Part shown: positions 62,994-64,000 of the stretch, in pieces
Position numbering within the stretch: the stretch's first letter is position 1
Layout: every line of letters begins with the position of its first letter
From: Sulfitobacter albidus
GTDB lineage: Bacteria > Pseudomonadota > Alphaproteobacteria > Rhodobacterales > Rhodobacteraceae
Assembly: GCF_018200035.1 (NCBI RefSeq)
Contig: NZ_CP073581.1
Coordinates: forward strand, 1,608,501 to 1,672,500
Direction: 5' to 3'
DNA length: 64,000 nucleotides
The notes under the pieces: generated by a model
Database searches by the model: none
Seen by the model: only the letters and a program-made list of their open reading frames with translations
What the model was told of the DNA's origin: nothing
Program-made: the position numbers and the translations under genes

Positions 62994-63014
62994 GCTATGC
63001 GCAAGGCGCATAGC
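62994..63014. terminator. Hairpin right after the LysR gene
   Basis: GCTATGCGC (62994-63002) pairs perfectly with GCGCATAGC (63006-63014) across an AAG loop, 6 bp after the LysR stop. No T-run follows, so a terminator role is likely only by position. Confidence 0.5.
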
Positions 63015-63044
63015 TGCTATGCCCAAGGTTGTGCAGAATCTGCC

Positions 63045-63073
63045 TTGATCGGTGGCACGTCGCACACTAATTG
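63045..63073 (+). promoter_or_regulatory. Promoter of the candidate small RNA
   Basis: TTGATC (63045-63050) and TAATTG (63068-63073) lie exactly 17 bp apart, giving a start near 63081. Confidence 0.5.
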
Positions 63074-63080
63074 GTCACGC

Positions 63081-63158
63081 ACAGGGATTGAGGCTGTTTT
63101 GTCTCGCCCTGTACCTCCCTGTTGGACTTGGCCGGGCCATTGTGCCCGGTCTTTTTTT
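63081..63158 (+). ncRNA. Candidate small regulatory RNA of about 78 nt
   Basis: The predicted transcript has three parts. A 5' hairpin: ACAGGG (63081-63086) pairs with CCCTGT (63107-63112), with an inner GAG/CTC pairing. Then an unpaired stretch (63113-63129) with CCUCCC, complementary to a Shine-Dalgarno sequence. Then the terminator hairpin with U7. It has its own promoter and no ribosome site or reading frame. This is the layout of Hfq-type antisense regulators. It is unlike 4.5S, 6S or tmRNA. No family name is known to me. Confidence 0.5.
63130..63158 (+). terminator. Intrinsic terminator with U7
   Basis: GGCCGGGC (63130-63137) pairs with GCCCGGTC (63144-63151) across a 6-nt loop, with one G-T pair, followed by seven T. 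It lies 143 bp after the LysR stop, too far and too well formed to be only that gene's end. Confidence 0.85.
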
Positions 63159-63363: not shown

Positions 63364-63834
63364 ATGACACGCAATCTTATGATCACAACCGCCGCCGTCG
63401 CAGCCCTTTTCGCCGCTCCGATGGCAACTGCACAAACCGTCAGCGATGACGTGACCAACGTCGAGATCGAAACCAAGCGTCCCGGCATCGGAATTGCCGA
63501 GTATGACCCCACCATCATGGGTGTGCAGCAAGACCAGTACGACGCTCTGCGCAACACTGTGGGTGATCCACTGCTGACCACTGACAATGAGCAGCTCGGC
63601 ACAATCACCGAAGTGACCTTTGACGGCATGGGCAATCCCGAACTGGTCGTGGATCTTGTCCCCGAGGCCAAGATCGACGCTGAAGAGTTGGTGATTACGC
63701 TGCTGCCCGAAACCATCAACATCGTGGATGGGAAAATCTTCCTCGATACCACTACAGATGAGCTGTACCTGAAGGCACAGCAGGGATCCAAGCGCGACGA
63801 CGAGACGTCAACATCCGTCACGATCTCTTCGTAA
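63364..63834 (+). CDS. Exported PRC-barrel-like protein
   Basis: 156 aa with a Sec signal peptide (cut near MATAQ, residue 24). The middle part GDPLLTTDNEQLGTITEVTFDG and NPELVVDLVP resembles a PRC-barrel core (beta strands with a G.I..V pattern), then EELVITLLPETINIVDGKIFLDTT. Acidic, no Cys. Role unknown; such proteins are often small periplasmic stress or envelope proteins. AAGGAG lies 7 bp before the ATG at 63364. A strong terminator follows. Confidence 0.78.
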   Translation: MTRNLMITTAAVAALFAAPMATAQTVSDDVTNVEIETKRPGIGIAEYDPTIMGVQQDQYDALRNTVGDPLLTTDNEQLGTITEVTFDGMGNPELVVDLVPEAKIDAEELVITLLPETINIVDGKIFLDTTTDELYLKAQQGSKRDDETSTSVTISS

Positions 63835-63976: not shown

Positions 63977-64000
63977 ATGTCCGAGCCCGAGATCACATCA
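63977..64000 (+). CDS. Possible start of a further gene, cut by the window edge
   Basis: An ATG at 63977 opens a frame (MSEPEITS) that runs off the right edge. A GGAG lies 8 bp upstream. Only eight codons are visible, so neither the gene nor its product can be confirmed. Confidence 0.35.

Follow-up and report, generated by a model that had tools for sequence, protein, structure and literature searches.

A SorY-type small RNA behind a LysR gene in Sulfitobacter albidus and its predicted link to solute uptake

The small RNAs (sRNAs) SorX and SorY are reported with one target each and in one species, Rhodobacter sphaeroides. Both targets are transport genes, takP for SorY and potA for SorX (PMC6238624, PMC9438474), and Hfq dependence is stated for both RNAs (PMC8307010, PMC9438474). 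In R. sphaeroides 2.4.1 the SorY 5' end lies at 1,632,642 and that of mature SorX at 2,598,224, behind an OmpR-type gene (PMC6238624). The AbcR sRNAs, for which the gene order trxB-vtlR-abcR is described (PMC7486931), show a CUCCCA motif in the first hairpin's loop, with GUUCCC separating this hairpin from the next (PMC5461406). Here we analyse 64,000 nucleotides (nt) of Sulfitobacter albidus (NZ_CP073581.1, positions 1,608,501 to 1,672,500; the window), for which an initial annotation had proposed a new sRNA with an exposed anti-Shine-Dalgarno (anti-SD) stretch. Judged by family match, shared core and gene order, the RNA is not new: it is a member of the SorX/SorY group (RF02784/RF02651), a kind described before, and is the positional ortholog of R. 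sphaeroides SorY.

At the curated Rfam thresholds SorX (RF02784) matches at 63074-63157 with 54.3 bits (cut-off 46.6), and a tRNA is the only other Rfam content of the window. The SorY model (RF02651) scores 40.9 at the locus against a gathering cut-off of 111, which weighs against a SorY assignment. This model matches at E <= 0.001 in 110 of 120 family genomes and passes its cut-off in one of the 120, so that the cut-off marks near-identical R. sphaeroides sequences; we call the RNA SorY-type because of its position, not because of the model. The sole match over the cut-off, in genome G110, starts at 1,632,645, which differs by 3 nt from the SorY 5' end given in the literature, and the same genome has a copy of the core's complement at 2,598,257, at a distance of 33 nt from the 5' end given there for mature SorX; from these coordinates alone G110 was taken as R. 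sphaeroides 2.4.1. There the SorY order is oxidoreductase (reverse), LysR, SorY and purL, the last named by NCBIfam. The window has the oxidoreductase gene (reverse), LysR, the sRNA, an exported-protein gene and purL; as at SorY, the sRNA stands directly downstream of LysR, and LysR next to the divergent oxidoreductase gene. The LysR neighbour named by the initial annotation is borne out by Pfam (HTH_1 and LysR_substrate), and its closest relative among the matches listed with names, in Sulfitobacter sp. DFL-14, is 85% identical.

This arrangement recurs. Among the matches listed, LysR lies within 600 nt upstream in 137 of 181 core-bearing places, which is not a census, many of the places having been fetched through a SorY-like pattern. 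Another 24 stand behind the OmpR-type gene, and 13 have less than 900 nt of upstream sequence, in which part of LysR is still seen for 5 and part of the OmpR-type gene for 1. The other 7 have no LysR within 600 nt: in 4 it lies about 1.0-1.4 kb upstream, and in 3 it is absent from the fetched stretch. Separately, 4 loci are without the core. The 181 include duplicates (window/L033, L153/L183, L024/L031), of which L033 and L183 are excluded from later counts. At L055, L060, L068 and L145 the LysR-sRNA gap is about 1.0-1.4 kb, where 0.1-0.3 kb is usual, and core and terminator are retained.

The RNA would start near 63078-63081 and be about 78 nt long. The computed folding energy of positions 63081-63158 is -34.1 kcal/mol, whereas shuffled sequences average -21.5 (z -3.94; 1 of 200 shuffles equally good). 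The fold contains the hairpin closed by ACAGGG/CCCTGT that the initial annotation had described, and the terminator with U7, also proposed there, is recovered by a terminator scan of the window. The core, ACCUCCCUGUUGGACU, shows no change at any of its 16 positions in all 39 sequences aligned. The 5' hairpin differs in sequence between orthologs while its structure persists: hairpins of -5 kcal/mol or better form in 150 of 150 distinct sequences, with a mean z of -2.7 and 113 of them below -2; conservation of the hairpins in relatives had been set beforehand as a point on which the proposal could fall, and the 5' hairpin is kept. Stem columns use A-U, G-C, C-G or U-A in different orthologs, and the window RNA has ACAGGG/CCCUGU in place of the commoner GAAG/CUUC stem. 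Since the ortholog pairs are read from single folds, which by construction contain standard pairs, they document variety rather than tested covariation.

Three results weigh against this picture. RNAalifold on the sequence alignment predicted no 5' stem; because of this, and because MAFFT had mixed the 5' hairpin columns, the hairpins were folded individually. The window hairpin by itself has a z of only -1.89. Finally, CCUCCC, first described as unpaired, is partly paired in the accessibility calculation: its unpaired probabilities are 0.76, 0.75, 0.74, 0.70, 0.32 and 0.59, mostly but not wholly exposed, because of weak CC/GG pairing with GUUGG. The seed is predicted to be longer than CCUCCC, namely CCUCCCUGUUGGAC, and largely single-stranded. 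Together with the family match, the strong conservation and the 5' stem built from different base pairs support the central proposal of a small RNA with an exposed anti-SD stretch.

The promoter with 17-bp spacing was also correctly placed: TTGATC at 63045-63050 and TAATTG at 63068-63073 are separated by 17 nt and conserved in orthologs. A sigma-70 promoter was considered and rejected, since the scan listed none here and the conserved form is RpoH-like. In a permissive search, CTTGA[T/A]-N16/17-CTAAAT is present in 148 of 151 upstream regions. With a fixed promoter score of up to 12, the window reaches 10; of the 150 distinct upstream regions 128 attain at least 9, as do 2.1% of mononucleotide shuffles. 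At the level of sequence, then, the window RNA has an RpoH-like promoter of its own, as SorY does. The conserved form resembles both the RpoH1 consensus match of the Sinorhizobium meliloti abcR2 promoter, CTTGAA-N16-CCTATAT (PMC8844928), and the preference of R. sphaeroides RpoHI/RpoHII for TTG plus flanking C/T (PMC3441632).

Upstream of the promoter lies a second conserved element, within which GCATAGCTGCTAT at 63008-63020 is an exact LsrB/VtlR box (consensus GCAT-N3-TG-N3-T; PMC8844928, PMC7486931). An expectation-maximisation (EM) motif search of 134 ortholog upstream regions, which forces one site per sequence and whose result comes without a shuffled control, returned TATGC-N6-CGCATAGCGGNNATG at a nearly fixed distance from the core. 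Against an operator, just 15 of the 146 ortholog regions carry the exact box (other strand 13; shuffles 0.9), and the commoner form of the box has GG replacing TG. We consider that the adjacent LysR protein probably controls the sRNA through this element.

Positions of all these features are collected in the following table.

Features of the sRNA locus in window coordinates
Feature	Position	Strand	Basis
LysR-type regulator, 298 aa	62091..62987	+	Pfam HTH_1 + LysR_substrate; reciprocal best match; gene order
Conserved upstream element TATGCGCAAGGCGCATAGCTGCTATG, predicted LysR operator	62996..63021	+	EM motif; box match
RpoH-like promoter CTTGATC-N17-TAATTG	63044..63073	+	ortholog conservation, shuffle comparison
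SorY-type small RNA	63081..63158	+	Rfam, fold, synteny with R. sphaeroides SorY
5' hairpin, outer stem ACAGGG 63081-63086 / CCCTGT 63107-63112	63081..63112	+	fold; ortholog folds
Invariant core ACCUCCCUGUUGGACU, anti-SD seed	63113..63128	+	alignment of 39, accessibility
CCTCCC	63114-63119	+	read from sequence
Intrinsic terminator, stem 63130-63151 then T7 63152-63158	63130..63158	+	fold, terminator scan, alignment
Small protein, exported-looking by eye, between sRNA and purL	63364-63834		

We next consider the sites that the core could pair with. A target prediction with CCUCCC had been suggested; ribosome sites complementary to the core (CCAACA followed by a Shine-Dalgarno sequence) fall for the most part at genes for solute-binding proteins. 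Among 198 family genomes, CCAACAGGGAG (CCAACA+GGGAG) followed by ATG occurs at 96 places in 75 genomes, and the scrambled prefix with GGGAG at 18 places in 15; CCAACA+AAGGAG occurs at about 248 places in 120 genomes (table summed by hand), and the scrambled prefix with AAGGAG at 49 places in 39. The CCAACA:scrambled ratio is thus about 5 with GGGAG (96:18) and with AAGGAG (~248:49) alike. Because the prefix ratio is equal in both settings, the counts alone are no proof of selection for a perfect match, and the enrichment of CCAACAGGGAG was set aside as such a proof.

The class of gene behind the sites is more telling. By Pfam, the open reading frames (ORFs) encode solute-binding proteins in about 44 of 89 cases for CCAACA+GGGAG (11 of 11 letters complementary, counted by hand as are the following), in about 20 of 30 for CCAACA+AAGGAG (10 of 11), in at least 7 of 18 for the scrambled prefix with GGGAG (9 of 11), and in 0 of 27, going by the 25 families shown out of 34, for the scrambled prefix with AAGGAG (8 of 11). 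Fisher tests of the two CCAACA sets against this 0/27 give 4e-7 and 3e-8, values that are overstated as related genes recur. Weighing on the other side, the scrambled GGGAG set itself includes solute-binding genes, and neither ~44/89 (p 0.45) nor ~20/30 (p 0.08) differs significantly from 7/18. The 44 sum SBP_bac_8, SBP_bac_5, Peripla_BP_6, DctP, SBP_bac_3, Bmp and OpuAC (25 of 81 families shown) on the assumption that each protein is counted once; the 20 sum SBP_bac_5, NMT1, SBP_bac_3, SBP_bac_8, Peripla_BP_6, OpuAC and DctP (25 of 28 shown), and the 7 sum SBP_bac_1, SBP_bac_5, Phosphonate-bd, TctC, DctP and NMT1 (all 19 shown). For AAGGAG, 30 of the 49 scrambled and 30 of the ~248 CCAACA places were read, in listing order. 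ORFs below 60 aa were excluded (7/96, 3/30, 0/18 and 0/30, and 1/10, of 12 aa, in the window genome).

Single genomes show the same association. All five CCAACAAGGAG-ATG sites of R. sphaeroides stand before genes for solute-binding proteins, and one of these proteins is close to PotF/PotD. The R. sphaeroides protein of the tripartite ATP-independent periplasmic (TRAP) type that has a site is not TakP: its match to 2hzk, which we take to be TakP, is only 3.7e-6. Against the association, none of the three AACAGGGAGG sites in this species that are followed by a start codon belongs to a solute-binding gene; the products are shikimate kinase, a protein of EthD type and one of Phenol_MetA_deg type. 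In the genus, CCAACAGGGAG-N4-12-ATG is found at 29 places in 20 of 40 genomes, the reversed pattern at 1. The genes of the sRNAs account for 8 of the 29; of the remaining 21, 10 were judged by eye to belong to solute-binding proteins. The window genome has 10 ACAGGGAG-N-ATG places against 1 for the reversed pattern, and 6 of the 9 ORFs scanned behind them encode solute-binding proteins. Here the two strongest predicted duplexes, of about -30 kcal/mol, fall about 6 kb apart, at the genes for a pyrroloquinoline quinone (PQQ)-dependent dehydrogenase of the methanol/ethanol type and its ATP-binding cassette (ABC) substrate-binding protein (L186, G000:C1:304033, and L412, 297679); both ribosome sites are nearly perfect complements of the core. 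In the 6 genus orthologs whose start region was read, the 14-nt complementarity of the PQQ-dehydrogenase gene is not retained as a single stretch, and this site was rejected as a conserved target.

The sites could also be an intrinsic translation signature of solute-binding-protein genes, to which the RNA is unrelated; its real targets would then be few. The equal prefix preference with GGGAG and AAGGAG, the solute-binding genes behind at least 7 of 18 scrambled GGGAG sites and the three AACAGGGAGG sites at other genes all fit such a signature. What stands against it is the drop to 0/27 when prefix and GGGAG are both replaced, compared with ~20/30 when the prefix is kept before AAGGAG, together with the sharing of the sites by unrelated Pfam families and the published targets of SorX and of SorY, both transporter genes. 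We hold this signature to be unlikely, though the most serious of the alternatives; the gene class at complementary sites supports, from sequence, the blocking of ribosome sites that the initial annotation had proposed.

Could the RNA be SorX itself, cut by RNase E from the 3' untranslated region (UTR) of an mRNA? RF02784 is the only model to pass its cut-off, and transcription might run on from lysR, since the scan listed no terminator on the plus strand after the LysR stop and before the RNA. The gene upstream is LysR, however, not the OmpR-type gene whose 3' UTR gives SorX, and the window copy has its conserved promoter. The window genome holds three RF02784 matches at E <= 0.001, the window copy being the second best; the best (G000:C1:3389799, L031; 60.3 bits) follows the gene of an OmpR-type response regulator and precedes xth, in the published SorX setting (PMC6238624), like the 24 listed places behind the OmpR-type gene. 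We rejected the name SorX because of gene order, in spite of the Rfam match, and regard an origin by such processing as very improbable.

Two to four RF02784 matches (E <= 0.001) occur in each of 36 genus genomes searched, its own included, and weak third matches recur across many of them. The third copy in the window genome (L032:3594-3674; G000:C1:1459593-1459673) is weakly SorX-like (28.7 bits), has ACUUCCUCCCUGUCAGAC before its terminator and lies between HerA-like and IalB-family genes. It also has a sub-threshold match to MmgR (RF00519), because of which it may be an alpha-R8-type sibling RNA.

That the locus is merely the terminator and 3' UTR of the lysR mRNA, with no separate regulatory role, would suit a gene co-directional with lysR; it is hard to reconcile with an invariant 16-nt core outside the stems, a retained 5' hairpin, a conserved promoter and operator-like element, and a separate SorY start site in R. 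sphaeroides (PMC6238624), and we give it very little credence. A new, unrelated anti-SD RNA, to which the 5' hairpin sequence unlike that of R. sphaeroides SorY and the missed SorY cut-off might point, is practically dismissed by the family match, common core and common gene order.

The SorY-type RNA is followed by a gene whose product the initial annotation had called an envelope protein; the protein looks exported by eye, but no NCBIfam or Pfam family matches it at E <= 0.001. A 46% identical homolog also lies between sRNA and purL in locus L030. In the window, purL starts with the ATG at 63978, at the window end.

Beyond the family, the LysR gene itself leads to loci arranged like vtlR/lsrB-abcR. 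A search for it in 190 sampled genomes of the class, own genus and family included, gave 101 genomes with a single match each at E <= 1e-60. A reciprocal search with the LysR of class locus L386, whose trxB is named by NCBIfam TIGR01292 over cut-off, returns the window LysR first with 296.8 bits, the next in the same genome having 134.5. Outside the family we read 47 class loci, 27 from among the best 30 matches and 20 hand-picked from the remainder. In 41 of the 47, trxB lies upstream of the reciprocal-best LysR on the same strand; in 32, CCUCCCUGU occurs within 1 kb downstream of LysR, and in 29 of these 32 CUCCCA stands at most 22 nt before the core, typically as a hairpin loop. This gene order and the CUCCCA motif agree with those known for AbcR (PMC7486931, PMC5461406). 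Between LysR and sRNA, a LysR-box-like site ([T/G]G form) is present in 13 of the 32 (shuffles ~1) and the strict box in 7 (shuffles ~0.5). On these grounds the window LysR is a candidate VtlR/LsrB ortholog. At L387, in one alphaproteobacterial genome, three tandem CCUCCCUGUUAGACUU copies follow the LysR ortholog at distances of 242, 540 and 769 nt from the match, and every copy is followed by a stretch resembling a terminator.

Other results count against a link to AbcR. Rfam matched no AbcR family in 15 class loci, and SorX matched 9 of the 15 at E <= 0.01, always below cut-off. The window LysR has the oxidoreductase gene rather than trxB beside it, the window RNA has no CUCCCA before its core, which reads CCUCCCUGUU, and CUCCCA is found in 1 of 151 SorY-side sequences. 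Because CUCCCA and GUUCCC are lacking, we describe the RNA as working like AbcR and do not file it as AbcR.

Taken together, we think it likely that the locus encodes a SorY-type anti-SD sRNA under stress and LysR control that represses solute uptake as AbcR does. In S. albidus the RNA would be transcribed from its own RpoH-like stress promoter by an RpoH-type sigma factor, with LysR bound at the upstream element probably acting as a further control. Under stress the sRNA, probably on Hfq, would pair with ribosome-binding sites of the form CCAACAGGGAG or CCAACAAGGAG and block translation of ABC and TRAP transporter solute-binding proteins; in the window genome the PQQ-alcohol-dehydrogenase cluster would probably be blocked too. 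The expected benefit is that the cell takes in less of the substrates fuelling respiration and oxidative damage.

More tentatively, yet with the balance somewhat in its favour, we propose that SorX and SorY form the Rhodobacteraceae branch of the AbcR circuit, in which a VtlR/LsrB-type LysR and RpoH drive an sRNA with the CCUCCCUGUUGGAC seed that silences solute-binding-protein mRNAs family-wide. If so, "singlet-oxygen RNAs" and "ABC-transporter RNAs" would be one class-wide system that ties nutrient uptake to oxidative stress. Ribosome sites marked by this seed stand at many solute-binding-protein genes throughout the family, for which a global regulation of nutrient uptake would then be predicted. 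Findings on AbcR (control by LysR, anti-SD pairing, regulation of uptake) and on photooxidative stress in Rhodobacter would explain each other. Our literature search, whose reach left out most subscription papers, the primary SorX/SorY papers among them, found no paper joining AbcR with SorX/SorY. The wider interest lies in three predictions from sequence: the LysR element, the link to AbcR loci and the solute-binding target class.

Compared with known systems, the window RNA is closest to SorY, with which it shares the LysR-sRNA(-purL) order, the invariant core, the RpoH-like promoter, the upstream element and the hairpin-core-terminator plan, whereas its 5' stem sequence differs, one extra gene precedes purL and the model score is 40.9 rather than 111. 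With SorX it has the core and terminator plan in common and passes the model cut-off, but it has LysR upstream and its own promoter sequence, and the genome keeps a separate copy in the SorX setting. Like AbcR1/AbcR2 of the Rhizobiales S. meliloti and Agrobacterium tumefaciens, it stands downstream of a LysR gene (here a candidate vtlR/lsrB ortholog) with a box-like element upstream, has an RpoH-like promoter as AbcR2 does, and is predicted to share anti-SD control of transporter mRNAs (PMC8844928, PMC7486931); unlike them, it is without the CUCCCA loop and GUUCCC (PMC5461406), and an oxidoreductase gene, not trxB, adjoins LysR. The alpha-R8/MmgR/SisA-D RNAs likewise have a single-stranded CCUCCCU before the terminator; their core, however, is UUUCCUCCCU (PMC12559287), and the third copy in the genome resembles them more than the window copy does.
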